Assembly: GCA_037039685.1 (NCBI GenBank) | Contig: JAWNGF010000003.1 | Span: 4,190,571-4,254,570, forward strand | Origin: Ceratobasidium sp. AG-K | Taxonomy: Eukaryota; Basidiomycota; Agaricomycetes; Cantharellales; Ceratobasidiaceae | DNA length: 64,000 nt | Reading direction: 5' to 3' | Program-made: the position numbers and the translations under genes | In this document: piece by piece, positions 6,838-61,485 of the stretch | Position numbering within the stretch: position 1 is the stretch's first letter | How the letters are laid out: every line of letters starts with the position of its first letter | The notes under the pieces: model-generated | Told to the model about the DNA's origin: nothing | Seen by the model: only the letters and a program-made list of their open reading frames with translations | Database searches by the model: none

Positions 6838-6839
6838 AA

Positions 6840-8254: not shown

Positions 8255-8256
8255 TT

Positions 8257-8268: not shown

Positions 8269-8276
8269 TAACAATC

Positions 8277-10257: not shown

Positions 10258-13200
10258 CTGTGTGTGGAGAGACCAAAGAACCGGCAAAGGAATCAGTGTA
10301 CTTTAGAGCAACAAATGAATCGACCATTGTTTACTCAAACATTACCGGAATCACAGACCCTATCCCTACCCTCATTGATATGGGAGCATCAAAAAACTTC
10401 CTGGATATCTCCTGGGCTCACTCCAACAATATCCCACTCATTGAACTTTTTACCCCACAAAGAGTAATTGGCATCCAAGGAAAGGAGCTTTCTCACCAAA
10501 TACAATGCAAGGCCAAGATAGAACTAGAAGTAGAAGGAAGAACCTTTAAACAGGTCTTCTTGGCTATGCCCACCGGGGAGACCAAGCTTATCCTAGGACT
10601 AGAATGGTTAGAAGAAGCAAACCCTGGTATCAACTGGAAAACAAAGCACATATCATGGCGACTAGAACCCATCCAAGCAAGAATGGCCTTGATAGACAAC
10701 TTACCTGAAGAATTCAAGGAATTTGCCAACGTATTTAGTGAAGAAAAATTCAAAAGGATCCCGGATCATTGTCCTTATGACTGCGCTATTGACTTTAAGG
10801 AAGGAGCTGAACTTCCAAAACCAGCCAGACCAATCCTGCTCTCTCCAGCCGAGTCAACTGCACTAAGAGAATACCTGGATGAGGAAATTGCGGCTGGAAA
10901 AATCCAACCAAGCAAATCACCCATTGCATCACCCTGTCTCTTTGTAAAAAAGCCAATTGATCCAAAAAACCCAGAAGCCGTACACCAATTACAACTTGTC
11001 CAAGATCTCAGGGGGGTAAATGCAATCACAAAGGATGACAGGTTCCCAATGCCACTGATGGAAGACCTCTTGGACAAAATCAAGGATGCAAAAATCTTCT
11101 CCAAAATCAATCTACGCATGGGGTTCAACAATATCAGGATCAGGGAGGGGGACGCATGGAAGACAGCTTTCAGAACCAAGGAAGGACTGTTCGAATACGT
11201 TATCATGCCATTTGGACTAAAGAACACCCCCGCCGTATTCCAAAGATACATGAACCACATCTTCCATGACCTTATCAACGTATGCATCATTATTTACATT
11301 GACGACATCCTGGTCTTCTCTAAGAACAGAAGTCAACATACTGTGGATGTCAGGAAGGTATTAAAGATCTTACTGGATGAAAACCTGTTTGCAAAACTCC
11401 CGAAATGCGAGTTCTTTGTCACCAGGTTAACATACACCGGGCTTCAAATCAGCGACACAGGCATCTCAATGGAGGAAGAGAAGGTCAAGGCAAAAAGGGA
11501 ATGGAAGGAACCAAGGACGGTCAAGCAGGTTCAAGCATTCCTAGGATTTGCAAACTTCTATCGAAGATTTGTACCAAATTTAAGCCGACTAGCAAAACCC
11601 TTGACGACCCTAACAAGAAAGGATAACAAATGGGAATGGGGAAATAATCAGCAGGAAGCATTCGAGGCTCTAAAAACAGAAATTAGCAAGGAACCCACAC
11701 TACGCCACCCCGACCCTGACAAACCCTTTTTTTTGGAAACGGACGCGAGTGGAGTAGCAATGGGAGCAATTCTCTCCCAAAGACAAGACAATGGCTACCT
11801 ACACCCTATTGCTTTCCTATCAAAATCCTTCAACAAGGCTCAACTCAACTACAATGTCCACGACAAAGAACTTATGGCAATCATAGAATCTTTGACACAC
11901 TGGAGGCTTTACCTTGAAGGAACAAAGGAGCCTATCACTATCTACACCGATCACAGGAACCTACAGTTCTGGAAGGAAGCAAAATCATTCAACCGTTGAC
12001 ATGCAAGATGGCACCAATTACTAGCCTCCTACAACTTTGATATCATATATTGCCCTGGGGTCCTTTCATCAAAACCGGACCTACTGTCCAGACAATCAGA
12101 CCACAAAGATATCCCCACTCCTGAACAAGTTATGATATCTGGCAAAAGGTTTAAAGGATTTATGGGGCAGGTAGACACAGACATCATAGCAACAATCAAG
12201 GAAGCACAGGAAACAGATGAAGGGTTGGCACAAATCAAAGAAATCTGCAAATCAAAGGAAATGTTACCAAAAACCCTGCAACACAGTACTAGAGATTACA
12301 ACTTCAAGGAGGGATTATTATGGTTCAAAGGAAGAATTTATGTACCAGAAGACAAGGAAGCCAGACTGGCCATCATGCAAATTCACCACGACTCAAAGGT
12401 TGCGGGCCATCAAGGACAGGCTAGAATGTTGGAACTAATATCAAGAAGATACTTCAGGCCAGGGATGAAGCAAAGCATCAACAGATACGTGGAATCCTGC
12501 AAAACTTGCCAACGCACAAAGGGGTCAAAATCAATAGTCCCGATCAAGCCTCTAGAAATTCCAAAGGGACCCTGGGAAGACATAGCTTTTGACTTGGTGG
12601 TGAAATTGCCAAAGTCTAAAGGGTCAGACAGCATCATGGTAGTGGTGGACCAGTTCTCAAGAATGGCGCATTTCATACCCTGCAAAGAATCTCACACAGC
12701 AAGCAATCTTGCAAATCTTTTTGTCACAGATGTCTGGAAACTGCACGGTTTTCTGAAAAGCACTATCTCAGACCAAGGAACTACCTTCAATTCTAAACTT
12801 ATGAAGGCCATTTACAAGAGAATTGGAAATAGCCCAAGTTTCAGCACTGCCTACCACCCCCAGACAGATGGGATAATGGAAAGAATTAACCAATGGATGG
12901 AAGGCTGGCTACAATCTTTTGTCAACTACCGGCAGGACAATTGGGCGGACCTGTTGCCAATTGCAGAATTCAGCTATTACCTGCAAAAGCACCGCGTAAC
13001 AGGCAGTTCCCCTTTTGCAATAGTCTACACCAGAGAACCACTGTGGAACATCTCATCAGAAGAAACAATGGTTCCTGAAGCAAACAACATCACGGAAAAA
13101 TGACATAGCATCCACGACAAAGCAATTGCATCAATGGAAAGCCAAAGGCTCCCCAAAGAAGAGCCTGAAAACAAGTACCAGGAAGGAGATCTAGTATGGC

Positions 13201-13769
13201 TGTTGGGAAGGAACATCCAAACAAAAAGACCATCAAAGAAACTGGATAACAGAAAGCATGGGCCATTCATTGTGAAGCAAAAGGTTGCATCACACACTTA
13301 CAAGCTCACTTTACCAGCAACAATGAGGGTGCACCCTGTTTTCCACATTGACTTGCTCAGCCCTTACAGGGAAGACACAGAGTTCAGACAAAACCAGCCC
13401 CAACCACCGCCTATCATAACAGAAGAAGGAGAAGAAGAATATGAAGTAGAAAAGATCCTGGACTGGAAGGAGACAAAGGATGGTCTGTTTTACAGGGTCA
13501 GATGGAAGGGTTACGGAAACAAAGAAAACACGGAACAAAGGGCGGAAGATTTTGGCCACCTTTTGAAGATCATCAAGGACCTTCTGCGCCGACACCCCAA
13601 AGCTCCCACACCATCTAACTACGTTCCAGGGAAGATAAAAGGCAGAGGGGGCGCAACTGGTAGTGACATCTGCAAAACTTGCTACTACTCCAAAACACAC
13701 TTCCAACTCTACGCTCTAAATCTTTTTTGCTCTCCACAATGCCTGCCGTTACCCGTGCCACCATCTTGA
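10122..13769 (+). pseudogene. pol: Element 2 pol (PR-RT-RH-INT-chromodomain), broken
   Basis: One continuous frame interrupted by two TGA codons (11997-11999 and 13101-13103). Protease: LIDMGASKNFLD, with Met where Ser/Thr/Cys is usual. Reverse transcriptase: motif A reads FSKINLRMGF, so the expected catalytic Asp is Asn; the second motif YIDDILVFS is intact. RNase H: ETDASGVAMGAILSQ. Integrase zinc finger: HHDSKVAGHQGQARM and CKTCQ. Core: VVDQFSRMAHFIPC, ISDQGTTFNSKL, QTDGIMERINQ. Chromodomain: YEVEKILDWKETKDGLFYRV, in which the tryptophan usual after the WKGYG block is missing. The first TGA falls in SFNR-TGA-HARWHQ, where Arg is usual. Homology with the family fades after about 13,620. Confidence 0.9.
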
Positions 13770-14394
13770 ACAACCTCATCCGCGTCCTCAAGGGACCCGC
13801 TTTGCTACTGCAAGGATCCTCGACACTGGAGCCACCCTCTACGTGTTCAAGAGGTCACAGCAGAGCTCCAGGAGAATGCACTTCAGGGCGTCGGACGACA
13901 TCCTACACTTGGACCTGGGATAATTCCAGTGGGTTGGAAAGAAATGGCCAACACGCATGCAACTCCTGTGGAAGGACATCTTTGTCTGCCGAGGATGCGC
14001 AGCGTTCCAGGTCTCGGAGGTTGTCCTCCTCTCCACCCACATGCTTGGGGTGGTCAAATGGGGACAAGAAGGGGCATACTTGAGCAAGTGGGTACCAGGG
14101 TACAACGGAAGACAACCAATGCTCCGACCTAGGTGGAACAACGCCTGGGACGCCAACTATGAAAGGGACCTGAGCAACTGGAAGATGGAAAGGGGAAGAT
14201 ACCAGAAGGAAAAGTTTGAATGGGTGCCGAACTGGTGGAAGTGGGAGGAGGTGGACGTGTCAGCATGGAAGGAGGCAGAACCAGACGTGCGACAATGGGA
14301 TGAGGAGTTTGTCAAATCTCAGAAGAGGGTTTTGGACTGGTCCAAGGCCAACTGGACAAAGGAGGAGACATGGGAAGAATGGGAAAAGTTCTAG
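13739..14394 (+). pseudogene. Element 2 extra Trp-rich reading frame between pol and 3' LTR
   Basis: ATG at 13739 begins MPAVTRATILNNLIRVLK. One base of frame change near 13792 leads to RFATARILDTGATLYVFKRS, then a TAA at 13921, after which the same frame runs open from 13924 to a stop at 14392-14394. The continuous part is strikingly rich in Trp, Glu and Lys (RWNNAWDANYERDLSNWK; WVPNWWKWEEVDVSAWKEA; WTKEETWEEWEKF) and includes CRGC. The orderly composition and continuity argue for a once-coding protein of about 215 residues carried by this element family. No signal peptide or membrane segment is seen, so it is not env-like. The function is unknown. Confidence 0.55.
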
Positions 14395-14532
14395 GATGAA
14401 CCAGGTAACACTGCGTTCAATCCCATTGATTTAACCTTTGACAAGGATGAGGGGCTGGAAGAACACATGCTCGCAAAAAGCAAGGATTGCAAGATCCAGT
14501 AGAGCCCGTCCAGGTCCCCTAGACAAACTCTT

Positions 14533-14544
14533 AGGGGGGAGTAA
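14533..14544 (+). other. Polypurine tract of element 2
   Basis: TTAGGGGGGAGTAA (14531-14544) directly precedes the 3' LTR start TGTCG at 14545. It is the expected plus-strand primer and is nearly identical to that of element 1. Confidence 0.8.
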
Positions 14545-15000
14545 TGTCGTGAGCTAGCTCCCTCCATCGGACTCGCCTGTTGTCTCACCCGCCTGTGTCC
14601 TCCTTTGTGTTGTGTTTCTGTTTCCGTTTGCCGCGTTGCCACCTTCTTGTGGTTGTTTGTGTTACACTGTGTAACGCAGCTGTGCTTTGTACAAGTCATG
14701 TCTGTTCATACAGCATGACTCACATGGACACTCCTGACTGGCTGTTTTGTGTGACTTGTGTGGCTGCGCCTTGTATGACTTGGCCACTTCTTGAATATAT
14801 ATAGAGGACCAACAAGCCTGGTAACCCCAGCTTGTTTTGTCTTGTCAAACATGCCTTTTGAGTGACACTTTGAACCACCCCTACCCTTAAGAGCCTACAG
14901 ACACTTAAGTGTGTTGCGGTTCAAGAGGTCGCTTAGGTCTTAGTGCCATCCACTCTCCATTGCAGCTTGTCTAATAGCCACCAAGAAGAAGCTTACAACA
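14545..15000 (+). repeat. 3' LTR of element 2
   Basis: A 456-bp repeat matching 7799-8254, ending TTACAACA at 15000, followed by the target duplication ATTGA (15001-15005). Confidence 0.94.
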
Positions 15001-37837: not shown

Positions 37838-39420
37838 TAGTCCGGTTATCGGAGCCAGATACAATACGAGCGCTGTGCTGTGTGGGGAGAACGTGACAGA
37901 CCCCTGTAATAACCCGGCTAAACCACCAGTATAAAGAGTCGGGTGTATTGAGAATTGAATGGAATAGAATTGAATGAACACGTATGAATTACTGAATATG
38001 GTTGAATGAGTGGATGTATGCTTACTGATTCTTTCTCATGCTAACTGAGAGTACACGTATGCATGTTACGAACTGTTCTCTTTGCATCTTTCTATGTTCT
38101 ATGACTACATGTATATAAACCTGATTGCGTACTCAGTATACACATCACCCAGTTGTTTACTTCGCTTTCGCTGCGATACTTGCCTAAGAAGTTTTGAGTG
38201 CGGAACCTTTCCGGTAATATCTCAATAGGGCGCTGTCAAGAGAGAATGCCACAGATCTGAGCGAGCCTGCGTGCCCTCGTAACGGGATCACTACAACGTT
38301 GCCTGTATGTCTGTCCTAGACCCGAATGGTGCTATTATAAGAGCTAGAGACGATCGGGGTGCCATCGGGAGATAATTCAACAGACCTGACCGAGCCTACA
38401 TATCCTTGTAGCAGGCTCGCTACAATGTCACCTGTACTTGTGTCCCAGACTCGGATGGTCCGATCATCAGAGCCGGAGATGATCCGAGTGCCGTCTGGAG
38501 AGAATGCAACAGAATTGACCAAGCCTGTGTGCCATTGTAAGGGTTCCACTATGGCGTCGCCTGTGTATGCATCTAATACTCGAATGGTGCCACCTGTATA
38601 GCTAGAGACAATGTGTATACCACTGGAGGAGTAGTTGACACATACGACGGCAGAATCCACACTCCAGGTCGCTAGCGCGCCGGTGTCACGTCCGTTTACT
38701 ATAGTCCTCGTTACGTCCAGCAGGTGCTGCATATGCGCCCGATAGTTCTTGTATACCGAGGTTGGCTGGGGACATAATGGCAGTGCAGAAACATAGGGGT
38801 GAGGGGTGCTTCGTACGCATGCTCCGGCTGCAAATCGGGTTTCAAACCTTCGGGCTTCGACCGCAAAGTAGACTATTTGCTTCGGTGCTTTGATGGACTG
38901 TGTGTCTCTCAGCATACTTAGCTATTCGACTCACTCATATATCTCGCCTTTAGCCATCGCTCCGCCTGGCTCAAAATCTCCACTCCATCAACAACCAGTT
39001 TTCCCAAATTCAGGGCCTCCATCCAAAACAGTGTGTGAAATTTCAGAAATGTAACTAACTTACGAGAAAGTACCGTGGAGGCAACCTCCGAAGGCAGGTG
39101 GTCACCCCAGTACCGGCAAGCATACAGCAGCGCTGGGGGTATATTGGTTGTGATCCACTCATCCAGGTCCGGCAGGTCCACGTCAAACACATATGACGAC
39201 TCGAGGTTACATATATTGAATCGAAGCTGCCCTCTCTTCACATCGAAGCAGTTACTTGCCAGTAGCTCACCGTGCTTGGCTTGGTCACAGTAAAAGTCTC
39301 CAGACCGAGACTGGTCGAGCATGTAGTCAGGGAATGATGCGTGCATGGTGGATACCAGTTGGTTTGACTCTGACACGTGAAGGACAGACAACAGTGATTG
39401 CCGTGCCAGCGATACTTGGT
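37838..39420 (-). pseudogene. Truncated NACHT-WD40 relic (NLR-E)
   Basis: A minus-strand relic of the NLR-A type. The 5' end breaks near 39415 inside the module after NACHT (RQSLLSVLHVSESNQLVSTM; compare NLR-A RLLSVLHISESSG). It runs through FNICNLESSYVFDVDLPDLD to about 38930, then the linker ARRFETRFAAGACVRSTPH and WD40 repeats (about 38650-38230). The frame ends where TAG replaces the Trp codon of a WD motif (TIRV-stop, 38316-38318). A further repeat relic, ARIVSGSDNRTIRV followed by TGA, lies at about 37838-37890, beyond 300 bp of unrelated sequence. Walker motifs and the whole 5' half are absent. It cannot encode a working NLR. Confidence 0.8.
37906..38225. other. Unrelated segment inside the NLR-E relic
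   Basis: AT-rich DNA separating two WD40 relics. It begins TGTAATAACCC and contains a TATATAAAC box at about 38110, features of a solo LTR, but no terminal CA with a target duplication was found. It may be an insertion or simply diverged sequence. Confidence 0.3.
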
Positions 39421-40548
39421 CCTGGGGAAGAAATAATCTCGGCAAAGATCGAAAATGCTCCGGGGTGCTCCAGAGCCCTCCGTCGGCTCCTTGAGCGCTT
39501 CGGAGCGCTCCCGAGCAAAACCGAGCTACAGAGCGCCCCGCCGCATTTTAGGTTTTCGCTGAGCGCTGTAAATACAGCAATATGATAAGCTAAGCCCAAG
39601 GATGTCCCTGTCTGTACTGATTACAGCAGAACTTTTACGCAAATAATTCTGCATCCTGGAGACTCTGGGATTTGGTGTTAGACGACATAACTTTGAAGGT
39701 ACGTCCATGTTGGTCATCTGTCTAAGAGTTCTGTGCAAACCCACGTACTCGAGTAGTATTATGACCGTACAGTACTAATAAATATATGAAAAATTCGGCT
39801 TTCCTTCCCACCAGCCGCCCGCTGGCCTGGAAGCAAGATGAAATAACTTTCGCCACTGAGACCAATTTTCGATTCCCTAGGCAGAACCGGCGTGCTGTTT
39901 CCGAACGAAGAGAGTGCATATCAATGATTACAAGGCTTTATAATTCACCTCGACGTGATATTGGGGGTCTTATCTCTGTGTCATCCGTCAGCGTGCGGGA
40001 TCCTTTGGACACAAGCAGGAAGCCAGAGGAATAATTGGCTTATTTTAGCTACTACCAGTTGGCAAGCAGACTTTCAGCCGGGCGTGCAATCGCACTTCTT
40101 CGCGACACAGTGTGTTTGCTTGAGCTTCTGCTTCGATTGCCACCCGATCGAGCGACTCGGGTATGATAATTTGGGCTAAACATACACGCGCCCGAGTACC
40201 GAGCTTTGACAGCTGAAACGAACAAAAGTTTGACAGAGCCGCGTGCTCAGAGGTCAAACACTACCCGCTGGCTAAGCTCTCAAGCTGGCACACCAAATGA
40301 AAAAAAAGTGGTAGGCCAAGTCAAGGATCGGTAGACCGGCATCCGGTTAGCGATGATTCCGAGCCGTCGGGATCTTCCAGAACAGGAAGATCGCGTGCCT
40401 AGTGTGGAACCTCGCGCGCTTCGTGAGCTCAAATGTGCAGGTACGAGAAGCATTGCGTCGGCATGCTCGTTGCGCATATAATGTTGCCGAGGCAAAGGTG
40501 GTTGCACCAGGCTGAGTTTTTCCCTCCCGCTCTTTCTACTGTTTTGCG
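39421..40548. other. Intergenic region with a short GC-rich block
   Basis: No gene supported. A GC-rich block at about 39450-39545 repeats GAGCGCT/GAGCGCC-like words. The rest is the upstream region of the FAD oxidase gene. Confidence 0.5.
39493..39510. repeat. Small perfect hairpin with TCGG loop
   Basis: GAGCGCT, TCGG, AGCGCTC: a 7-bp perfect stem with a four-base loop, within a block rich in the same word. No poly-T follows, and a terminator role is not implied in a fungus. Confidence 0.55.
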
Positions 40549-43401: not shown

Positions 43402-46378
43402 ATGACGCCTGCTGTCTCCCGACCCCCCGACGACGACGAGGTCCACCCATATGTGATCACTAATGAGATTGGCAAGGGGAGCTTTGCCACTGTCTATCGA
43501 GGATATCACAGTGTATGTATACAAGTGTTCCGGTTGATAGTGAGCTAACTTGGAGATAGGAGAACCGACGAGCGGTGGCGATCAAGACCATCTCTCGCGC
43601 GATCCTCACCACCAAACTCCTGGACAACCTCGAGTCTGAGATCAACATCCTCAAGGCTCTCAAGAACAGACACATCACCGAGCTCACAGATATCGTCGTA
43701 CGTACTCCACCTGCTTATCCAACTCGCACTGACGTCCAACAGAAAGCCCAACGGAACATATACCTCATAATGGAATTCTGTTCTGGCGGCGACCTGAGTT
43801 CATACATCAAACATCGGGGACGCATCGCCGCACTACACACCCCCGACTCTCCATTACCATCATATCTTCCACATCCCAAGGTCGGCGGATTGGCCGACTC
43901 GGTCGTCCGCTCGTTTATCGGCCAACTCGCATCCGCTATGAAATTCCTCCGCGCACGGGACCTAATTCATCGTGACATTAAGCCTCAGAACTTGTTACTT
44001 GCTCCAGCAACTAGCGCCGACGAATACGCATGTGTCGGCAAAGGTGGATGGATTCCTGGGCCGGTCGGGACGCCGATCTTGAAGGTGGCAGATTTCGGAT
44101 TTGCGAGGATTTTGCCGAATGCGAGTATGGCGGAGACGCTGTGCGGGAGTCCGTACGTGGCTTTCTTATTGTCTGCTAGCTGTTAACTAACATAGGTATA
44201 GACTGTATATGGCGCCGGAGATCCTGCGTTACGAAAAGTACGACGCCAAAGCCGACTTGTGGTCCGTTGGTGCGGTTGTGTACGAAGCAGCCGTCGGCCG
44301 ACCACCATTCCGAGCACAGAACCATATCGAGCTACTGAAGAAGATCGACCACGCCCGAAGCCGCGTGCACTTTCCTGACGAGGCAAGTCCAATCCCATGT
44401 TTACATGCACCCACTGACCATTTCGTAGGACCCGAAGAACGCCGAAGCCATCGCCCGAGGCGACCTCGTGCCCGTCAGTCCAGCGGTCAAGGCGCTTATC
44501 AAGTCACTCCTCAAGCGTAAATCCGTTGAGCGACGCTCGTTTGAGGACTTCTTTACCGCCGCCGAGGAAGTCGTCAGGACTGTCATGGAGCCTGAGCGAG
44601 ACGTGGGACTGGAGCTGCAGGATGCGATGAAGGATGGAGACGTATTGGTTGCATCCGGCGGGGCGAGTGCGAACGGGAGTTTAAAGATTGAAATCCGGGC
44701 GTCGAGGCGAGCTCCTCAACCGCCCACCAAGTCGGCTGAGCCCAAGTCGGCTGTTGAGCCTAAGTCAGCGGTCGAGCCCAAGTCGGCCGTGGAACCCAAG
44801 TCGGCCGAGCCAGAAGACAAGCCCAAGCGACGCAAGGAGATTGAAGGCGGAGATATCGACATTAAAGCGGTTATGCCTGCGAGTACGTTTAAGTTTCGGC
44901 GGGCTGTTCGGTCTGGGGAGAAGGATGCGGGTGTGGTGGAGGTCAAGGCAGCTGGGCCGCCGCTCGGACGGGAGGAGACCTTGTAAGTATTATGCGTGCG
45001 CATCATCGGTTGATGCTGATTAGGTTTAGGATCGAGTTTCCAGGACACGAGTCGAGGATTCGGCCTAAACCATTGCCTACGGGGAATGCAGTTCAGAAGA
45101 CCGAATCGGGACAGTCGTTCCATTCTGCCAAGGCTGGGCCGGGCGGAGAGGAGGATGCAGCCGAGGATGCAGATGGGGGATGGAGGCGTGAATATGTTCT
45201 CGTAGACGAGACAAACGCTGTCGAGTTTAATCGGGTCGTTGATGGTACGTTATTTCCCTGCGCAACTCCTCATAGCTAACGCCCGGACAGAACTCGACCA
45301 CGCCCGGACGGCACGTCCGAACCTTCCACGAGCGATCAAGTCGAGTCCGGTAATGACAACGACCACAGCGCCTATCGACGTGCCTTCACCAATTTCACCC
45401 AACCGCCCTGGGATGCCTCAACCCTCGCCCGCGTCCACACCTGCCAACGCACTCGCACGAGCGCTGAACCTGGCGAGCAAGAAACTGTTCGGAACGAGCG
45501 CATCTTCTAATTCTGGCTCGAGTGCAGCAGCTGAAGGTTCGCCCGCTGGTCAACGTCGACAGATCCTACTCCCACCTACCAACGCCGAACCCGATGCGGA
45601 AGAAGAGCTCCTACTCGGCACGCTCGAAGACATTGCGCAAAAAGCCGAAACGATCTCTGCGTGGGCCGACTCAAAGTACACTCTCGTCGCCTCCCGTCCG
45701 TCTAAACCGATCGCCGACCCAGCCCGGTTCTCGCGAGCCGAGGGCGAAAGCGCTCAAGTCGCTGAAACCCGTCGGAAGCGCGAGGTTGAGGTGGAGATGG
45801 CTGCGGTGACAGCGATTGGACTGTACATGGCCGTGATGAGCTTCGCAACGGGTGCGATCGTGGTCGCTCGCAGGTTTTTAGATGGGCGAGAGGGTGCGGA
45901 AGTGAGCGTCGGATTCGACGAGGCGCAAAAGTGGTTCCGGGATACGTTTCACCGCTCGACGGAACGTGTGAGCATACTGAAGCACTGGCTTCCGCGGGAT
46001 CATGTTATGCCGCAGATGTGGATCGATCGGGTCATCTATGATCATGCGCTAGGACTTGTGAGTTCTTTCCTTTAGTTTTGCTGGGTTGTACTAATTTGGT
46101 ATAGATGCGAGGCGCGGCGAGTCGTGAGCTTTTAGAAGACTATGCGACGTGCGAGCGAGATTACGAGACTGCATTGTGGCTGTTGTATGCGATTTATGAC
46201 GATATTATGCAAGACGGGAATCCGTACAAGGATCAGGATCGGGTGACTATTGGGCGATGTGAGTGCCTTTCATCTCCTCTCGGTCCTAACTTACGCGTCT
46301 GTAGTTATTAAATCGACAAAAGACCGACTGGTCCGAGTGCAGAAGCGCATGGAGCGGCAGAAGCTGAATGCGCGATGA
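43402..46378 (+). CDS. ATG1: ATG1-type autophagy Ser/Thr kinase
   Basis: ATG at 43402. N-terminal kinase domain: [12 protein letters not shown] (Gly loop), VAIKTI (catalytic Lys), [13 protein letters not shown] (HRD), [10 protein letters not shown] (DFG), then [21 protein letters not shown] disordered linker contains five tandem PKSA-type repeats (44735-44815) and the conserved FVLVD-like [19 protein letters not shown]. The C-terminal helical tandem MIT (EAT) region starts with [20 protein letters not shown] and ends [12 protein letters not shown], stop at 46376-46378. ATG1 starts autophagy with ATG13 and ATG17 under TOR control. The gene has about eight short introns and is intact. It is the upstream copy of a tandem duplication; a broken second copy lies at 54266-56815. 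Confidence 0.92.
44735..44815 (+). repeat. Tandem PKSA(V)E repeat in ATG1 linker
   Basis: About five copies of a 15- or 18-base unit encoding (A/V)EPKSA. They are kept in the duplicate at 54903-54983 and lie in a disordered linker. Confidence 0.75.
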
Positions 46379-48544: not shown

Positions 48545-51500
48545 CTACGAGAAATAGTCGAGCCAGCAAGTTCCGTTCAAAACGTTGCTGTAGTCGATAC
48601 GAATTGCGCCATTTGGCCCGATTACGCATGGATTGTACGGCGTTGGCAAGTAGGGAGCGATGTCCTGTGGGACCCAGAGGAGTCTCCGAGAATCGGGGCC
48701 TGTCACCCATCCATCATCTGCGAGGGACCATGTATCGGCTAAAGTGCAGATTTATATGAGACCCGCCTAGAAAACTTGAAAGGACTAGCTGGACACCTAC
48801 CAAGCAATGGCGCATTATGCTGTGGAAGCCAAATACGTACGGCCTTGTTGTCTGATCCGGCGATGGCATGTGAGCTGTCGGGTGAGAACGCAACCGACTT
48901 GACAGAGTTGAGCTGCCCCGTGAGAGGTACGCCAATGGGACTACCGTCCTGACCGTTCCAGATGCGGATGGCCTTGTCGTCCGAACCAGAGAGGAGGAAC
49001 ATACCGTCGGGTGAGAACACAACCGAAAGGACAGCACCATTATGGCCCTGGAGTGGCACACCGACAAGGCTACCATCCTCAGTGCTCCAAATGCGAATGG
49101 TCTTGTCATAAGAGCCAGAGACGAAGCGTGTGCCGCTGGGTGAGAACGCAACCGACCTTACCCAGCCCGTATGACCCTGAAGAGGTACACCGATGAGACT
49201 ACCACCCTCGGCGTTCCAGATACGAATGGTCTTGTCATCGGAGCCAGAGATGATGCGCGTGCCGTCAGGTGAGAACGCAACCGAGTTGACCCAGCCAGTA
49301 TGACCTTGGAGAGGTATACCGACGGGACTACAATCCTGACTGTTCCAGATGCGGATGGTCTTGTCTTCGGAGCCAGAAACGATACGTGTGCCGTCGGGTG
49401 AGAATGCAACTGAGTTGACCGAGTTGGTATGACCTTCGAGAGGCGCACCAATGGAACTACCATCTTGACTGTTCCAGATGCGGATAGTCTTGTCATGGGA
49501 GCCAGAGACGATGCGCATGCCTTCGGGTGAGAATGCAACCGACTTGACTGAGCTGGTATGACCCTCGAGAGGTGCACTCATAAGGCTGCCATCCTGAGCA
49601 TTCCAGATACGGATGGTCTTGTCACGAGAGCCAGAGACGATGCGCGTGGCGTCGGGTGAGAATGCAACCGAGTAGACAGCACCGGTATGACCCTGGAGAG
49701 GTGCACCGATGAGACCGCCATACTGAGCGCTCCACATGCGGATGGTCTTATCATAAGAGCCAGAGACGAGGCGTGTGCCGTCAGGTGAGAACGCAACCGA
49801 CTTGACCGAGCTGTTATGTCCTTCGAAAGGTGCCCCGATGAGGCTACCATCCTGACAGTTCCAGATGCGGATGGTCTTGTCATGAGAGCCACAGGCAATA
49901 CGGGCACCATCGGGTGAGAATGCAACCGAGTAAACAGCAGCAGTATGACCCTGGAGCGGCGCACCAATGAGACTGCCATCCTGAGCGTTCCACATGCGAA
50001 TGGTCTTGTCATTCGAGCCAGAAATGATACGCGTGCCGTCGGGCGAGATTGCGACCGAGTTGACCCAGTCGGTATGACCCCTAAGAGGTGCACCGATGAG
50101 ACTACCACCGTCAGCGTTCCAGATGCGAATGGTCTTGTCATCGGAGCCAGAGATGATGCGTGTACCGTCAGGTGAGAACGCAACCGACTTGACCCAGTCA
50201 GTATGACCCTGGAGAGGCGCACCGATGAGACTACCATCCTGACCGTTCCAGACGCGGATGGTCTTGTCATAAGAGCCAGAGACAATGCACGTGCCATCGT
50301 GTGAGAATGCAACCGAGTTGACCGAGTTGGTATGACCCTCGAGTGGTGCACCAATGGGACTACCACCCTGAGTGTTCCACATGCGGATGGTCTTGTCATC
50401 GGAGCCAGAGACGATGCGTGTGCCGTCGGGTGAGAATGCAACCGACTTGACTGAGCTGGTATGGCCTTGGAGAGGTGCACCGATGAGAGCACCGTCATGC
50501 ACATCTTTGATTATAATGCTACCGTTACCGCACCCAACCGCGATCCGAGTGCCATCAGGGGAGTATGCCACAGACGGCACATCCGAGCCAACTCTCCAAC
50601 TTGCAATCACAGTCTGGTACCTGGACGTTATCCCAAATCCCTCAGGCTTTACCATCCATCGCATCTTACTCCAGTGGTACTTGTACACAGCGCTGGACTG
50701 ATGGCAGAAGGGCAGTGCCGACACATAGATGTGCGGAGTCGATTGGGACACTGCATTCGCCGCAAAGCTGGCCACAAAGTCCCGAGCGTCCTCTATCTCT
50801 TGTAACAGATCGGAGTGCATATTATTGGCCTGTACATACACACCTCAGTAAGGCGCGTGCCACACTCTACCACCTCGCTCGCTCACCATGATCCAGAGCT
50901 TCGTCGTGAGCATCACCCGCGCCCCTAGCCCCATCCAGTGCTTCAGGTTCATCACCTCCATCCAGAACAGCAGACGCTCAGATAGGAAATCCACTATTAA
51001 GTCATGTAAGTCATCGGAATAGTTGGCCTGTCGTAGGTGATCGGCCCAGTAGCGACACGCATATGAAAGCGTCGGCGTGATCGCCTCATTGACGCGGCTC
51101 TCGAAGTTGGGCACCGCTTCGTCAGGTATATACGACGACTCGAGTCCACAGATGTTGAATCGTAGTTGCTCTTTCATCAGTTCGAAGCATCGTCGTGCGA
51201 GTAGTCTATCGTGTTGCTCCGGATTGCAGTGGAATGTCGACGAGCGGGATGAGTTGAACATATAATCCGGAAAAGACGCGTGCAGGGTCGACACGACACT
51301 GCAATCCTCAGACACGTATAGGACCGACCGGAGTGGCTTGAGGGCTTCAAGAACCTTTTCCAAGTCGGGAATGTTCGTCAAGGCAGCAAGAGTCCGTACG
51401 CTGATTGGCTCGCGAGTGCATACGGCTGTCCAAAGCACGAGTTTCATTCGTTGCTCTTCGTCTTCTTCCAGTACGTCAGTGTTTAATGCTGCCAATAAGA

Positions 51501-53362
51501 TAGTGGTGTATAATTTGTCGATCTCGGCATGTGCCTTTTTTGATACGAACTTCACTGATAGTATTCGTGTCAAGCGTTCCTCGATGTTCCCAGCTTTGAT
51601 ATATCGGGCCGCCGTCGCCGCATAGATAAACAAACCGCCGGACTGCTCGGCCAGTTGCTTTAGGTGGGGAGGCGCAACCGACGGAAGTTCCTCATGCAGA
51701 TATAGCTCGATGTCCGCCTGTACGTCCGATGGTTTAATAGTATGGAGTTCGTACACGGAGCGCACACTCTCGGGCTGCTTCTGGATTTTGCTGCGTATGC
51801 TCGGCTCAGGTCGACTTGCGACAAAAAGCTTCAGAGGCAGGTTCGGCGCCTCTTGCAGCAGTATATCCAGAACAAGCTTCACTCCGTTGCTGGCCGTACA
51901 CTCGTCGAGAGCATCGATCACGACCACAAGTCCACTCGGGATCATATCCTTCGCCTCCAGGAGTGGCTGCTTCAGGATCTCCTCAAACTGACTCGGTATG
52001 GAGCTCGATAGAATGTCTGGATCATTGCGAAGTACACGACAGAGGGCATGTAGGAATGGCGCACAGTGGCGGGCGAGCTGGTACGCAATAGTGGGTACGA
52101 TACGGGCGACATTTCGACATTCGGCTGTTGTGCGCGTGCAGAAGAAGCTCGCAGCTAGCTGCTTGTTCTTTTCGAGCTCTCGAGCAAAGGTATATGCAAT
52201 GGTTGTCTTTCCGGTGCCGGCCATGCCGTTCATCCAGCAAACATTGGGGCTGTTGGGATCTACCAGCCAGACACGAAGGTCGGATAGAACGCCGGTACGG
52301 GTATTTTCAGTGCAGGCTCGTCGGTTGATATCCATTGCCAAGCTTGAGTCGTAGGCTGCGAGTTTTGCGGGATTGAGATCCTTTAGTTGATTTTTCTGTC
52401 AAACCCGAGTGTGTGAGTTTCCAAGTAAGTTCTACACTGGGTTTGAGACTCGCCTGTTGTTCGGTTACGCTACCAAGGCCTGCGTCAAGCTGCAAATACA
52501 TAGTCAACTACTTCTCTGATTGCATACGAATCAAGGCGAGGTTACCTGCAACTGCCGACACAGGACTTGGATGAGACGATCGCATGTCGAAAGCGCCTCT
52601 GTAAGGTGTTCTGCCTTCAGAAAGTATCTACCCAGGTTGCTGTTTTGTTCTTTGGCGATGAGATCGACCTGTGCCTGGATCGATCTGTATAACCTTAGGC
52701 CCTATCGATCCAAAGGTGATTCGTCTGCCACTCACTGGACAATCTTCACGATGGAATCCATGTTCGGAAGCGTATTGGAGCCCTGTAAATGTCGGTCAAG
52801 CGTCTCGCTCATCATCTTCAGTTCGAGTGCGAGTGTTTCGCACTCTTTTTGGTTCCTCGTAGATTCCTATTCATAGAAATTATCAGAGTGTGATGCTGCA
52901 TATTAGAGGGGGGATCACCTCGAAGAGCTCGAAACCCGAAAGTAATTCGCCAATCACTGATTGAAGGGGCGGGAAGAGTGCCGAGTTGGTATGCAAGGTT
53001 TGAAGTGCAGAACGTAGTCCGCCCCATGAGTTTCCTTCATTCCCGGTTGATGTCAGATCTCGGAGGGTCGGAGGAACGCGCAAGGACGGCACTTGCGACG
53101 CAGATCCCGGCGGCAGAAGCGCTGTGGCGGAGGGGCCAAGGGATGACGCGGGTGAAACTGCTGATGCCTGTAAGCTCGACGACGGCAGAAGTATGTTTGG
53201 GTGAGTTCCTGGGGATCCAGAAGCAGGGGAAGAAAGTATGACTGATGGTTGGCTTGGGGTAGAGGGTCGGGAAGGGGGCGCCGTCAACGATGGCGATCCG
53301 AATGCTTTATCCCATGCGCGAGTTGCACGGGCGCGCAGGCTTTTGGACTTTGGCTTGGACAT
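48545..53362 (-). CDS. NLR-C: NACHT-WD40 STAND protein, 14 repeats
   Basis: Minus strand, ATG at 53362 (MSKPKSKSLRARATRAWDKA). Exons inferred: 53362-52919, 52866-52736, 52693-52546, 52489-52454, 52395-50887, 50829-48801, 48738-48545. The intron after 52454 is GC-AG (CAG/GCGAGT). Order: basic and Ser/Pro-rich N-terminus, helical segment (LRSALQTLHTNSALFPPLQS), coiled-coil exons, NACHT with Walker A GMAGTGKTT and Walker B VVVIDALDECTA, helical module (FNICGLESSYIPDEAVP), then fourteen WD40 repeats, and a C-terminal module in its own exon (LLWVPQDIAPYLP ... GAIRIDYSN). Likely an intracellular non-self or damage sensor that can trigger cell death, inferred from HET-D/E. It is paralogous to NLR-D within the tandem duplication. 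Confidence 0.87.
48855..50600 (-). repeat. NLR-C WD40 array, 129-bp units
   Basis: Fourteen repeats with a 43-codon period and a shared core (SVAFSPDGTRIVSGS.DKTIR.W). The residue after the SGS core varies: D, Y, D, N, H, Y, R, H, E, D, Y, D in the twelve regular repeats. The pair after the GH(T/N) motif also varies: SS, NS, DW, AA, GA, GW. Confidence 0.9.
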
Positions 53363-54265: not shown

Positions 54266-56815
54266 GTACCTGCCCCATCCCCAGGTTGGTAGACTGGCCG
54301 ACTCGCATCCGCTATGAAATTCCTCCGCGCACGGGACCTAATTCATTGTGACATCAAGCCCCAGAACTTGTTGCTTACCCCAACTACAAGCGCCGACGAG
54401 TACGCGTGTTTCGGCAAAGCCGACTTGTGGCCCGTTGGTGCAGTTGTGTACGAAGCAGCCGTCGGCCGACCACCATTCCGAGCACAGAACCATATCGAGC
54501 TACTGAAGAAGATCGACCACGCCCGAAGCCGCGTGCACTTTCCTGACGAGGCAAGTCCAATCCCATGTTTACATGCACCCACTGACCATTTCGTAGGACC
54601 CGAAGAACGCCGAAGCCATCGCCCGAGGCGACCTCGTGCCCGTCAGTCCAGCGGTCAAGGCGCTTATCAAGTCACTCCTCAAGCGTAAATCCGTTGAGCG
54701 ACGCTCGTTTGAGGACTTCTTTACCGCCGCCGAGGAAGTCGTCAGGACTGTCATGGAGCCTGAGCGGGACGTCGGACTGGAGCTGCAGGATGCGATGAAG
54801 GATGGAGACGTATTGGTTGCATCTGGCGGGGCGAGTGCGAACGGGAGTTTAAAGATTGAAATCCGGGCGTCGAGGCGAGCTCCTCAACCGCCCACCAAGT
54901 CGGCTGAACCCAAGTCGGCTGTTGAGCCCAAGTCGGCGGTCGAGCCCAAGTCGGCCGTGGAACCCAAGTCGGCCGAGCCAGAAGACAAGCCCAAGCGACG
55001 CAAGGAGATTGAAGGGGGAGATATCGACATTAAAGCGGTTATGCCTGCGAGTACGTTTAAGTTTCGGCGGGCTGTTCGGTCTGGGGAGAAGGATGCGGGT
55101 GTGGTGGAGGTCAAGGCAGCTGGGCCGCCGCTCGGACGGGAGGAGACCTTGTAAGTATTATGCGTGCGCATCATCGGCTGGTGCTGATCTGTTTTAGGAT
55201 CGAGTTTCCAGGACACGAGTCGAGGATTCGGCCTAAACCATTGCCTACGGGGAATGCAGTTCAGAAGACCGAATCGGGACAGTCGTTCCATTCTGCCAAG
55301 GCTTGGCCGGGTGGAGAGGAGGATGCAGCCGAGGATGCAGATGGGGGATGGAGGCGTGAATATGTGCTCGTGGACGAGACTAATGCGGTCGAGTTCAACC
55401 GGGTGGTTGATGGTAGGTTTTTCTCCTATGCCACTCCTCATGGCTAACGCCCGGACAGAACTCGACCACGCCCGAGCGGCACGTCCGAACCTTCCACGAG
55501 CGATCAAGTCGAGTCCGGTAATGACAACGACCACAGCGCCTATCGACGTGCCTTCACCAATTTCACCCAACCGCCCTGGGATGCCTCAACCCTCGCCCGC
55601 GTCCACACCTGCCAACGCACTCGCACGAGCGCTGAACCTGGCGAGCAAGAAACTGTTCGGAACGAGCGCATCGTCTAATTCTGGGTCGAGTGCAGCAGCC
55701 GAAGGTTCCCCCGCTGGCCAACGTCGACAGATCCTGCTCCCACCTACCAACGCCGAACCCGATGCGGAAGAAGAGCTCCTACTCGGCACGCTCGAATTCA
55801 TTCTGCAAAAAGCCGAAACGATCTCTGCATGGGCCGACTCAAAGTACACTCTCGTCGCCTCCCGTCCGTCTAAGCCGATCGCCGACCCGGCTCGGTTCTC
55901 GCGAGCCGAGGGCGAGAGCGCTCAAGTTGCTGAAACCCGTCGGAAGCGCGAGGTTGAGGTGGAGATGGCGGCGGTGACGGCGGTTGGACTGTACATGGCC
56001 GTGATGAGTTTTGCGACGGGTGCGATTGTGGTCGCCCGGAGGTTTTTAGGGGGCGAGAGGGTGCGGAAGTGAGCGTCGGATTCGACGAGGCGCAAGAGTG
56101 GTTCCGGGATACGTTTCACCGCTCGACGGAGCGCGTGAGTATCCTGAAGCATTGGCTGCCAAGGGATCATGTTATGCCGCAGATGTGGATCGATCGTGTT
56201 ATTTACGATCACGCGCGGCCCTTTCAGTTTCTCCCCCCTCTGCTCTCTTTACCGTGCTCGGCTTTGACTTCAGACGCCTCCTCTGTACGCCTCCCTTGTG
56301 GACGAGCGGTTTGACCCTGTGTTCATGTAGCTCGTTAAAGATGTATTTAAAATAAAATAAAATAAAATAACGATCACGCGCTTGGACTCATGAGTCCCTT
56401 CTTTTTCGATATTGAGGTGGTGCTGACGTTTGCGTAGATGCGAGGAGCGGCGAGTCGCGAGTTGCTGGAAGATTACGCGACGTGTGAGGGGATTACGAGA
56501 ATGCGTTGGAGTTGTTGTGGCGATATACGATGACATTATGCAAGAGGGCAATCCGTACAAGGATCAGGATCGGGTAACTGTTAGGCGATGTAAGTCCATC
56601 CTCCCACTTATTGACCCTTGCTCACACCTATGTAGTTATCAAATCGTCAAAAGACCGACTAGTCCGAGTGCAGAAACATATGGAGCGGCGGAAACATGAC
56701 AATGCGCGATTATCTCACGGCTTTCTGTTGGTTTTTGTTCCTATTCGTTACGGACGTTTATAGTATTTGCGATTTTGTTGTGGACGCATGGTGTATATTA
56801 TATTTTGTACCAATG
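54266..56815 (+). pseudogene. 3' part of ATG1 duplicate, broken
   Basis: Starts inside the kinase domain (similar to ATG1 from about 43880) and runs through to ATG1 3' flank sequence. HRD reads IHCDIKPQN, so Arg is Cys. The DFG motif and activation segment are missing because of a deletion of about 210 bp between CAAAG words (ATG1 44038-44042 and 44246-44250). The linker with its PKSA repeats is kept. A 1-base loss near 56050 (RRFLGGERVRK then stop) and indels near 56480-56515 destroy the MIT region. A retroposon is inserted at 56217. The lack of the N-lobe and of the catalytic motifs means no kinase activity. Confidence 0.9.
56217..56370 (+). mobile_element. Short retroposon insertion with AAAAT tail
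   Basis: A 154-bp insert flanked by an 11-bp duplication CGATCACGCGC (56206-56216 and 56371-56381), absent from the intact ATG1 copy. It ends in about four AAAAT units, a tail typical of non-LTR retroposition. GGTTTGACCC at about 56310 resembles a polymerase III B box, so a SINE is possible; a 5'-truncated LINE is the alternative. Confidence 0.8.
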
Positions 56816-57062: not shown

Positions 57063-60000
57063 TTACTGCGAGAAATAATCATGCCAGCGACTTCCGTTCA
57101 AAACGTTGCTGTAGTCAATGCGAATAGCGCCGTTTGGCCCGATTACCCATGGGTTGTACGGCATTGGCAGGTAAGGGACGAGGTCCTGTGGAACCCAGAG
57201 GAGAAGCCGAGAATCGGAGCCTATCACCCATCCATTCTCTGCGAGGTACCATGTGTATGCTGAATTTAGATTTAGCGGGGAAAACGTTTGGATTAGCTAA
57301 AGACACCCACCAGGAGAGGTCGTGCTATCATGCGGACTCCAAATGCGTCCGCTGTTATTGCCTGGTTCGGAGATGGTACGTGTACTGTCGGGTGAGAACC
57401 CAACCGAGTTGACAATACTGGTATGACCCTCGAGAGGCGCGCCAATCGGACTGCCATCCTGAGCGTTCCACATCCGGATGGCCTTGTCAAAAGAGCCAGA
57501 GACGATGCGTGTGCCGTCGGGTGAGAACCCAACCGACCTGACATAACTGGTGTGACCCTGGAGAAGCGCGCCAATCGCACTGGCATCCTGAGCGTTCCAC
57601 ATCCGGATGGTGTTGTCATAAGAGCCAGAGACGATGCGTGTGCCGTCGGGTGAGAACCCAACCGAGCTGACAGAACTGGTATGACCCTCGAGAGGTGCGC
57701 CAATCTGACTGCCATTCTGAGCGTTCCACATCCGGATGGTGTTGTCATTTGAGCCAGAGACGATGCATGTGCCGTCGGGTGAGAACCCAACCGAGCTGAC
57801 ATAACTGGTATGACCCTCGAGAGGCGCGCCAATCGCACTGCCATCCTGAGCGTTCCACATCCGGATGGTGTTGTCAAAAGAGCCAGAGACGATGCGTGTG
57901 CCGTCGGGTGAGAACCCAACCGAGCTGACATAACTGGTATGACCCTCGAGAGGCGTGCCAATCGGGCTGCCATCCTGAGCGTTCCACATCCGGATGGTCT
58001 TGTCCCTTGAGCCAGGGACGATGCGTGTGCCGTCGGGTGAGAACCCAACCGAGTTGACATAACTGGTATGACCCTCGAGAGGCGCGCCAATCGCACTGCC
58101 ATCCTGAGCGTTCCACATCCGGATGGTCTTGTCAGAAGAGCCAGAGACGATGCGTGTGCCGTCGGGTGAGAACCCAACCGAGTTGACCCAGTTGGTATGA
58201 CCCTCGAGAGGCGCGCCAATCGCACTGCCATCCTGAGCGTTCCACATCCGGATGGTCTTGTCAATTGAGCCAGAGACGATGCGTGTGCCGTCGGGTGAGA
58301 ACCCAACCGAGCTGACATAACTGGTATGACCCTCGAGAGGCGCGCCAATCAGACTGCCATCCTGAGTGTTCCACATGCGGATGGTGTTGTCATGCGAGCC
58401 AGAGACGATGCGTGTGCCGTCGGGTGAGAACCCAACCGAGCTGACATAACTGGTATGACCCTCGAGAGGCGCGCCAATCGCACTGCCATCCTGAGCGTTC
58501 CACATCCGGATGGTCTTGTCAGAAGAGCCAGAGACGATGCGTGTGCCGTCGGGTGAGAACCCAACCGAGCTGACCCAGCTGGTATGACCCTCGAGAGAAG
58601 CACCGATCAGGGTACCGTCATGTGCATCTTTGATCATAATCCTGCCGTTGCTGCACCCGACTGCGATCCGAGTGCCATCATGGGAGCACGCAACAGACAA
58701 CACAGCCGAGTCAACCCTCCAACTTGCAAGTACAGTCTGAAATCTCGACGCTATACCTGGTCCTTCCACCTTGATCGCCCCACGTATTTTATGCCAGTAG
58801 TGCTTGTACACGACGCTGGAATGCTGACAGAACGGTAGCGCTGATATGTAGATGTGTGGAGTGGATCGGGCAATGGCATTCGCTGCAAAGCTCGTCACAA
58901 AGTTCCGAGCGTCCTCTGCCTCTTTAACAAGCTCAGAGTCCGTGTGTTTGGCCTATACATACAACTCTGAGTAAGGTACGCGTCAAACCCGACCATCGTC
59001 TTTGCTTACCATGATCCATAGCTTCGCGGTTAGCATCACTCGTACACCTAGCCCCATCCAGTGCTTCAGATTCATCACCTCCATCCAGAATAGCAGATGT
59101 TCAGACAGGAACTGGGCTAGTAAGGCACGCAATTCGTCCGAAACCTTGGTCCGCTGCAGGTGGTCGGCCCAGTAGCGACAAGCATATGCAAGTGTTGGCG
59201 TGATTAACTCATTCACGCAGCTTTCGAGCCCAGGTACCTCTTCGTCGGGTACGTACGGAGATTCGAGTCCACAGATGTTGAATCGCAGTTGCTCTTGCAT
59301 CAGTCCGAAGCATCGTCGTGTGAGTAGTCCATCATGCTGCTCCGGATTGCAGTAGAAGTCCGACGAACGGGATGGGTTGAGCATGTAGTCGGGAAACGAT
59401 GCGTGCAACGTCGACACGACATTGTGATCCTCTGAGATGTAAAGCACCGACCGGAGCGGCTCGAGGGCTTCAAGTACCTTCTTCGAGTCATCGATTCTTG
59501 TCATCGCGGCAAGAGTACGCACGCTGATTGGCTCGCGAGCGCATACAGCTGTCCGAAGCACGAGTTCCATCCTTTCCTCTTCGTCATGTTCCAGTACATC
59601 CCTGTTGAATGCTGCTGACAAAATCGTGGTGTACAACTCGTCGATCTCGGTATGCACCCTTTTTGACACGAACTTCATTGACAGTATCCGCGTCAATCGT
59701 TCTTCCATGTTCCCCGCTCGAATATACCGTGCTGCCGTCGCCGCATAGATGAATAAACTGCCAGACTGCTTGGCCAGCTGCTTTAGTTGAGAAGGCGCAA
59801 TAGATGGCAGCTCCTCACGCAGATACAGTTCGATGTCTGCTTGTACGTCCGATTGTTTAACGGCGTGAAGTTCGTACACGGAGCGAACACTCTCGGACTG
59901 CTGCTGGATTTTGCTTCGTATGATCGGCTCGGGTCGACTCGTAACAAAAAATCGTAGAGGTAGGTTTGACGCCTCCCGGAGCAGCATATCCAGAACTAGC

Positions 60001-61485
60001 TTCACTCCATTGCTAGCCGTGCATTCGTCAAGAGCATCGATCACGACGACGAGTCCACTTGGGATCATATTCTTGGCGACCAGGAGCGGCTGCTTTAGGA
60101 TTCGCTCAAACTGATTCGAAATGGAGCTCGAGAGAATGTCCGAATCATCACGAAGTACACGACACAGGGCATGTAGGAATGGCGCACAGTGGCGGGCAAG
60201 CTGGTACGCGATGCTGGGTATCATACGGGCCACATCCTTGCAATCGGCTGTTGTGCGTGTACAGAAGAAGCTCGCAGCTAGCTGCTTGTTCTTTTCGAGT
60301 TCTCGAGCAAGGGTATATGCGATAGTGGTCTTGCCGGTGCCGGCCATCCCGTTCATCCAGCAAACATTGGGGCTATCGGGGTCAACCAACCAGGTACGAA
60401 TGTCGGACAGAACGCCGGTGCGAGTGTTTTCAGTGCAGGCTCGTCGGTTGATATCCATTGCCAAGCCTGAATCGTAGGCCGCCAGTTTTGCGGGATTGAG
60501 GTCCTTGAGCTGATTTTTCTGTCAAGTTCAGTCCGTGAGTCTCTAGGTGAGCTGCAAATTGTGTTTGTGACTTGCCTGTTGTTCGGTTACGTTCCCAAGG
60601 CCTGCGTCAAGCTGAAAAGGTCACCATAAGCTATCTTTCCGATCCCATGCTGATCAAGGCGAGATTACCTGTAACTGCCGACACAGGACTTGGATAAGAC
60701 GATCACATGTCGAAAGCGCTTCTGTAAGGTGTTCTGCCTTCAGAAAGTATCTACCTAGGTTGCTGTTTTGTTCTTTGGCGATGACGTTGACTTGTTCTTG
60801 GATTGATCTAGATAACCTGAGGCTCTGTCGATCCAAAGGTAATTCCTTTACCACTCACTGGATAATCTTCACGATGGAATCCATGTTCGGAAGCGTATTG
60901 GCGCCTTGCAAATGTCGGTCTAGCGTCTCGCTCATCATCTTCAGTTCGAGCGCCAGTGTTTCGCACTCTTTTTGGTTCCTTGTGGACTCCTATTCAGTAG
61001 ACATGATCAGAGTGTGATACTCCGAGTTAAGTCGGTATTACCTCGAACATATCGAAACCTGATAGCAATTGGCCGATTACTGTTTGTAGCGGCGGGAAGA
61101 GTGCAGAGCTGGCGTGCAAGGTCCGAAGCGCAGAATGGAGTCCATTCCATGAGCTTGCTTCGTTTTCAGTTGACCCAAGGTCCTGGAGCACTGCAGGAAT
61201 ATGCAAGGACGGCGTTCGCGAGGTAGACAACGGAAGTGGAAGTCCTGTGGTAGAGGGAGCTGGGGATGAGGGCGCTGGGTCCGCCAGCCTACGTGAACTC
61301 GACGACGGCAAAGGTGCATGCGGGTGAGCTCCCGGGGGGGCAGAAGAAGGAGGGGAAAGTAGGACTGATGGTGGGTTTGGGGTGGAGGGCCGGGAAGGGG
61401 GTGCTGATGACGATGGTGATCTGAATGCTTTTTTTAAGAAACGAGTTGCACGGGTGCGAAGGCCTTTGGGCTTTGGTTCAGACAT
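57063..61485 (-). CDS. NLR-D: NACHT-WD40 STAND protein, 11 repeats
   Basis: Minus strand, ATG at 61485 (MSEPKPKGLRTRATRFLKKA), stop TAA at 57063-57065. The exon plan is the same as NLR-C, including a GC-AG intron (CAG/GCAAGT at about 60570). Ser/Pro-rich N-terminus, helical segment (LHSALRTLHASSALFPPLQT), coiled coils (NSNLGRYFLKAEHLTEALST), NACHT with GMAGTGKTT and VVVIDALDECTA, and FNICGLESPYVPDEEVPG. The WD40 exon (about 58950-57320) has eleven repeats; the first and last are degenerate and the middle nine nearly identical. The C-terminal module exon is LLLWVPQDLVPYLPMPYNPW ... RIDYSN. No stop or frame break was found. Role inferred as for NLR-C. Confidence 0.87.
57410..58590 (-). repeat. 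NLR-D WD40 array, nine near-identical 129-bp units
   Basis: Units read HTS.V.SVGFSPDGTRIVSG then S.D(K/N)TIRMWN. Outside a few codons they are almost identical in DNA. The residue after SGS is S, H, I, S, R, F, N, Y, F in nine successive units (one unit has PGS), followed by D and K or N. The residue before V in the HTS.V motif is W, Y or S, and NW occurs once. Confidence 0.92.

Follow-up and report, generated by a model that had tools for sequence, protein, structure and literature searches.

A 64,000-nucleotide stretch of the genome of the basidiomycete Ceratobasidium sp. AG-K (the window; GenBank assembly GCA_037039685.1, contig JAWNGF010000003.1, positions 4,190,571 to 4,254,570) carries a gene, here called NLR-D, for a fungal NOD-like receptor (NLR) with an array of nearly identical WD40 repeats. 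Amino-acid change within these repeats is concentrated at four codons, which correspond to those that diversify in the recognition repeats of Podospora. We consider it probable, at roughly 0.8, that NLR-D is a tripartite NLR whose homogenised array, with selected codons on the top face of its blades, acts as a rewritable sensor of the HET-E kind. Recombination among units would keep the framework of the array alike while units are created and lost, and selection would retain new residues at codons 5, 7, 23 and 25, and at codon 4 as well in relatives. The array would in this way present a ring of variable, rewritable contacts on the top face of the blades. If a non-self or modified-self protein binds to this ring, the NACHT domain may in response oligomerise and the N-terminal region start cell death, a role that would fall within allorecognition or defence.

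The array has 11 recognisable units, namely a degenerate first unit (D0), nine highly alike units (D1 to D9) and a degenerate last unit (D10). Each of D1 to D9 is exactly 129 bp long and the nine share a single open frame, with a DNA identity of 0.891–0.984 over the 36 unit pairs (mean 0.931) and a mean protein identity of 0.871 over 387 amino acids (single pairs 0.767–0.953). This places the array in the class of high internal conservation, defined as more than 85% identity over at least 100 amino acids (Dyrka 2014), with mean unit identity used here in place of T-reks. Outside codons 4, 5, 7, 23, 25 and 37, the mean amino-acid identity over the remaining 37 unit positions is 0.946. Every unit has a sequence of its own, and exact repeats within the array reach at most 128 bp.

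The initial annotation had read the region as nine near-identical units with one hypervariable residue, found directly after an SGS core. Its account of the units is correct, as is its list of residues at the variable codon (S, H, I, S, R, F, N, Y, F), which is codon 23 when numbering starts at the G of GHT; in one unit the core reads PGS instead. A single hypervariable residue is too narrow a description, as four to five codons vary. The K/N site two residues on (codon 25; K, N, K, K, K, N, N, N, K) and the residue before the V (codon 5; W, Y, Y, W, Y, Y, Y, S, Y) vary as was claimed, but that list left out the residue after the V (codon 7; S, S, S, N, N, S, S, S, R) and codon 37 (A, L, A, A, P, A, Q, A, P). 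The combination of residues at codons 5, 7, 23 and 25 is distinct in all nine units.

We counted the proportions of non-synonymous (pN) and synonymous (pS) differences over the 36 unit pairs by the Nei-Gojobori approach, which is a counting method and not a likelihood test. The pN is 0.375 at codons 5, 7, 23 and 25 versus 0.037 at the other 39 codons, with an overall pS of 0.063; the pS at the four codons is 0.033, on only 2.1 silent sites. Variation is not spread evenly across the unit, since 54% of the non-synonymous differences fall in these four codons, and the concentration of amino-acid change is strong but not total. A comparison with HET-E gives a similar picture. We take the positions by which HET-E repeats are typed to be codons 3, 4, 5, 7, 23, 25 and 32 of the NLR-D unit, a mapping that aligns the units by residues presumed to be conserved in the HET-E repeat. 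Six of these seven are variable in NLR-D and together the seven hold 13 of the 24 extra amino-acid states, which was matched in 1 of 100,000 simulations, while six extra states in one codon were reached in 78 of 100,000. In the HET-E numbering the typing positions are 10, 11, 12, 14, 30, 32 and 39 (PMC12222747).

Paoletti and colleagues report that, in Podospora, unit codons 7, 9, 25 and 27 are under strong diversifying selection, are paired around the conserved codons 8 and 26, and are placed at the top of the propeller, in the d-a loop and b-c turn (PMC1805685). The variable codons of NLR-D form the same pairs, with 5 and 7 around V6 and 23 and 25 around D24, and are thus the Podospora set shifted by two, in a register inferred from codon spacing and loop placement. 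The chance that a random top five would hold all four Podospora codons is 4e-5. The initial annotation had likened the combination of high homogeneity and concentrated change to HET-D and HET-E, and the agreement in codons bears this out.

We judged surface placement by DSSP on a predicted structure and by published interaction hotspots. The AlphaFold2 model of the WD40 exon was built from a 24-row alignment and without the C-terminal exon, and has a mean pLDDT of 73.5 and a pTM of 0.51. In the first unit of the model the strands span residues 6–11, 17–22, 26–31 and 37–43; codons 4–5 and 23–25 fall in loops, codon 7 begins strand a and codon 37 begins strand d. By the rule of Wu and colleagues, codons 5, 7 and 23 are residues R1-2, R1 and D-1, top-face positions that widely take part in partner binding in WD40 complexes (PMC3419727). 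Codons 5, 7, 23 and 25 are predicted to be top-face residues within or next to the d-a and b-c loops. Mapped on a propeller in this way, the variable residues support the earlier suggestion of an evolving recognition surface in a basidiomycete NLR, although recognition itself would be a function deduced from this placement.

NLR-D is not the only array of its kind in the genome. The assembly comprises 53.6 Mb in 17 contigs, and NLR-D lies in a contig of 5.7 Mb. A protein search of the genome scored at least 79 of 846 first-look candidates, and 43 arrays were read with none dropped: 40 loci beyond the window and the window arrays A, C and D. The 40 loci were taken from the best matches to NLR-D, so the fractions given here are not genome fractions. 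Median unit identity is at least 0.85 in nine of the 43 arrays, among which NLR-D ranks eighth, and these homogeneous arrays have 7 to 20 detected units. At one locus, L034 (1–5901), the 20 detected units, 19 of them closely similar, would nearly suffice for three seven-bladed propellers.

Eight of the homogeneous arrays were pooled, leaving out L028 as a near copy of L030 and keeping both L009 and L016, which are also near copies; 92 of 99 units, those at least 0.85 identical to their own array consensus, entered the test. The top codons are 23, 7, 5, 4 and 25, and pN is 0.332 at codons 5, 7, 23 and 25 versus 0.030 elsewhere, with an overall pS of 0.050. Leaving out NLR-D changes these values little (0.326 versus 0.029). 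Codon 37, with residues A, L, P and Q in NLR-D, falls well below the five top codons in the pool (pN 0.115).

The near-identical copies show how the arrays change. L028 and L030, both with 11 units, are 0.966 identical in their flanks, and their arrays differ at 53 of 1419 bases, which amount to 32 non-synonymous and 4 synonymous codon changes. Thirty of the 32 non-synonymous changes fall in codons 4, 5, 7, 23 and 25, and the other two in codon 6 (binomial 4e-26, a guide only because the changes are treated as independent). L009 and L016 differ in length, with 7 versus 11 units between flanks that are 0.996 identical upstream and 0.919 downstream. Eight other pairs, from the non-homogeneous class, have 92 non-synonymous changes, of which 24 lie in the four codons and 36 in the five, alongside 70 synonymous changes. 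All 24 come from L012/L013 (13 of 40) and L015/L048 (11 of 31); of the 21 non-synonymous changes in the remaining six pairs, none lies in the four codons and two lie in the five. The sharp effect is thus seen in the one homogeneous pair tested, and young pairs of the other class are without it.

Other features of these pairs deserve mention. The flanks of L012 and L013 are 0.992 identical but the arrays only 0.949, and of the codon changes 40 are non-synonymous and 31 synonymous; turnover of the array by exchange rather than by point change is possible. Several NLR pairs are mirrored on opposite strands, with midpoints at 4.927 Mb on contig C4 (twice), 1.519 Mb on C7 (twice), 9.287 Mb on C1, 1.843 Mb on C10 and 0.058 Mb on C9. 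This layout suggests either that large segments were duplicated in inverted orientation or that a single contig joins two haplotypes, and as a result L028/L030 and L009/L016 may be alleles.

The array belongs to a gene of seven exons on the minus strand that would encode 1368 amino acids, with splice sites read from the sequence (Table 1). All exons are open. The NACHT exon matches PF24883 (NPHP3_N; 1.8e-32) and PF05729 (3.1e-12) in Pfam, which identifies a NACHT NTPase, and its Walker A (GMAGTGKT) and Walker B (VVVIDALD) motifs are intact. In the same gene, as joined by the inferred splicing, PF00400 matches nine stretches (1.7e-116), which gives the C-terminal WD40 repeats. From its sequence, NLR-D is best described as a tripartite fungal NLR with a family-specific N-terminal region, a putative NACHT switch and a putative WD40 sensor.

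Table 1. Features of NLR-D, of its sister gene NLR-C and of their surroundings (window coordinates).
Feature	Coordinates	Strand	Remarks
NLR-D gene model	57063–61485	-	seven exons
NLR-D exon 1	61042–61485	-	Ser/Pro-rich start, then beginning of the family's N-terminal region
NLR-D exon 2	60859–60989	-	N-terminal region
NLR-D exon 3	60669–60816	-	N-terminal region
NLR-D exon 4	60576–60611	-	short; proposed GC donor; least certain of the seven exons
NLR-D NACHT exon	59010–60518	-	PF24883, PF05729; Walker A and B intact
NLR-D WD40 exon	57311–58952	-	
NLR-D C-terminal exon	57063–57259	-	closing motif GWVIGSDSRLLLWVP
Unit D0	58590–58718	-	degenerate first unit; 0.81 identical to C0 of NLR-C
Units D1–D9	57429–58589	-	sensor array; nine 129-bp WD40 units; D1 58461–58589, D9 57429–57557
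Unit D10	57300–57428	-	degenerate last unit; about 0.6 identical to other units, 0.69 to C13 of NLR-C
NLR-C	48.5–53.4 kb		sister gene
NLR-C NACHT open frame	50845–52398	-	
NLR-C unit C0	50467–50595	-	end unit; makes 14 units together with C1–C12 and C13
NLR-C units C1–C12	48919–50466	-	less homogeneous sister array
NLR-C unit C13	48790–48918	-	end unit
Genes beside NLR-C and NLR-D	44244–46049, 54412–56216		95.8% identical
Two probable long terminal repeat (LTR) retrotransposons	308–7253, 7792–15000		end repeats 96.9% and 95.5% identical; reverse transcriptase frames
Further NACHT-WD40 gene	38240–39547	-	pieces in short frames; probably a broken copy

The N-terminal region is common to the family, with 117 domain matches among the 120 relatives listed, but nothing in it rises above the Pfam cut-off; a 168-amino-acid slice matches DUF7145 alone, below the cut-off. 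A HET domain was not found at the sensitivity of Pfam, where exon 1 gave no match at 0.001 and 12 slices of the region matched 18 families, none of them HET. NLR-D is therefore placed outside HNWD proper, and would be HET-E-like in operation without being an HNWD protein. An effector identity was also sought by profile search among solved structures, where the matches are to designed coiled coils (best E 7.6e-8), segments of O-GlcNAc transferase and other helical pieces; we take these as coiled-coil-like chance matches and rejected them. The region may resemble the MLKL-like domains of basidiomycete NLRs. MLKL-like domains in basidiomycete NLRs have been reported (PMC9815663).

The sister gene NLR-C dates the homogenisation. 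The NACHT frames of NLR-C and NLR-D are 82% identical in protein, with 0.61 synonymous (dS) and 0.10 non-synonymous (dN) substitutions per site, and the dN/dS of 0.17 suggests that the NACHT domain is constrained. The end units of the two arrays pair one to one (D0 with C0, D10 with C13), and the inner D units form one group (local support 0.994) that is nearest to C1, with one tie with C7. Because the pS of the array (0.063) is far below the dS of the NACHT frames, the split of NLR-C and NLR-D must long precede homogenisation of the inner D units, and NLR-D thus shows concerted evolution. The genes beside the two NLRs, with dS of 0.05 and 0.14 in two frames, are far closer to each other than the NLRs are, which indicates a separate duplication or gene conversion.

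NLR-C itself has some structure. Tandem Repeats Finder reported a higher-order repeat with a 387-bp period, which was rejected since identity by offset favours seven units in NLR-C and none in NLR-D. Units of NLR-C are most alike at an offset of seven (0.829; p 0.0076, uncorrected for the 10 offsets compared), as with C1/C8 and C3/C10, a pattern that duplication of an entire propeller would leave. The NLR-C model forms two closed seven-bladed propellers, with 288 and 286 residues aligned at 1.0 and 0.8 Å. Domain-wise fits were used because global superposition is poor for double propellers; on 5i2t it gave template modelling scores of 0.54 and 0.50 for NLR-D and 0.44 and 0.50 for NLR-C, among the 50 matches listed.

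The best match of the NLR-D model does not close two propellers, and NLR-D has three fewer units than NLR-C, a difference on which the initial annotation was silent. NLR-D may therefore be contracted, and a copy that lost three units and left its two propellers unclosed might be inactive, like non-reactive alleles of het-e and het-d. The commonest unit counts in relatives, 13 and 14, fit such a loss, as do the 128-bp exact repeat, which sits exactly three units apart, and the greater number of private changes in the NACHT of NLR-D. The open exons and intact NACHT motifs speak for a working gene, and the homogeneous arrays of this genome range from 7 to 20 detected units. The model is also a limited witness, since its alignment is shallow and it omits the last exon, and some WDR5 rows reach residue 535, so that a late strand may close a propeller. 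We regard an inactive NLR-D as a serious but minority possibility, and one that bears on the present activity of NLR-D and not on its design. That the unit number, or even the whole array, is an assembly artefact is improbable. Such arrays are misassembled from short reads (PMC12222747), but the contig size and small number of contigs suggest long reads, and every unit of the array is different, with exact repeats of at most 128 bp.

Two features of NLR-D sit uneasily with selection as the only cause of the variable codons, as silent changes occur at codon 22, which adjoins codon 23, and codon 37 varies as much as codon 5. The silent changes, together with a raised pS at the four codons of the pooled arrays (0.108 versus 0.046), are what would be expected of a local mutational hotspot or of hypermutation directed at repeats, akin to repeat-induced point mutation, at the SGSxDx stretch. 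Codon 23, however, varies at its first and second positions (0.64 and 0.81) and little at its third (0.22), and transversions account for 46 of its 60 base differences between units, compared with 72 of 184 at the 39 codons other than 5, 7, 23 and 25. This position bias and transversion excess argue against simple hypermutation, the excess being unlike C-to-T change, and two separated stretches vary together. We therefore find a hotspot unlikely, to about the degree that applies to an assembly artefact. Less likely still is that a young array was homogenised and the variable residues are neutral leftovers that fell where they did by chance. The homogeneity of the array and the few silent sites in nine units leave room for such an account, but in NLR-D and in the pool alike the four codons have a pN about sixfold the array pS, the same codons recur in arrays of other genes and species, and L028 and L030 differ by 32 non-synonymous and only 4 synonymous codon changes. 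Selection on the top-face codons of a homogenised array accounts for these observations best.

Relatives with the most homogeneous arrays show, on average, the same pattern. There are 1313 protein matches; of the 120 listed, one is from Flammula alnicola and almost all the others belong to Ceratobasidium or Rhizoctonia. We examined 126 proteins (the 120 relatives, five window fragments and the NLR-D model), of which 121 have six or more units. Mean unit identity is at least 0.80 in 12 of the 120 listed relatives, 11 of them from Ceratobasidium sp. AG-Ba. The mean profile of these 12 has codons 23, 7, 5, 25 and 4 at the top (0.77–0.55), with the next at 0.24. Taken singly, the top five of positions 1–38 include all five codons in four relatives, four in six and three in two.

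These arrays raise the prospect of a basidiomycete battery of rewritable receptors of the HET-E type, in which copies or haplotypes of one NLR would keep its body and gain new residues at five codons per blade along with new unit numbers. Since the same codons appear in an ascomycete and a basidiomycete system, the scheme would either predate the split of the two phyla or have been reached twice, the latter because no other residues of the blade are free to vary; we find the case for this broader proposal evenly balanced. NLR-D is well supported as a new member, and the codon-level agreement across two phyla is new with respect to the literature drawn on here, the kind itself being already known. 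The codon signature of Podospora recognition repeats, worked out in ascomycetes in that literature, is thereby extended to a basidiomycete lineage with a large repertoire of WD40-NLRs. The pairs L028/L030 and L009/L016, whose bodies are almost unchanged and which differ chiefly in recognition surface or in length, are natural comparisons that allow a direct search for ligands and direct cell-death tests.

Among known systems, the best PDB sequence match to the array is 2ymu, presumably of bacterial origin, which also has near-identical WD40 blades in one chain but is not an NLR sensor. The Ceratobasidiaceae proteins named "Vegetative incompatibility protein HET-E-1", a label of the source that is no evidence of function, share the NACHT domain and WD40 array and in most cases the N-terminal region; the best-scoring NACHT match among those listed is 55% identical, and most of their arrays are less homogeneous. 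A literature search on Rhizoctonia/Ceratobasidium NACHT-WD40 proteins and HET-E returned no title that treats the NLR-D array. By its internal identity, NLR-D fits the conserved-repeat class of fungal NLRs, which makes up 21.6% of their WD repeats and occurs in both ascomycetes and basidiomycetes (PMC4986451). Per-codon selection was tested there on Podospora ANK and TPR repeats, and a codon-by-codon test of a basidiomycete WD array was not found in the portions of that article used here. The closest comparison is with the Podospora HNWD proteins HET-E, HET-D and HET-R (PMC1805685, PMC12222747). NLR-D differs from these in having no detected HET domain, in its basidiomycete origin, in a unit of 43 rather than 42 amino acids and in the extra variable codon 37. 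It shares with them a NACHT domain and a WD40 array with units of 42–43 amino acids and high internal identity, concerted evolution, change in unit number, and the same four variable codons in pairs around a conserved one.
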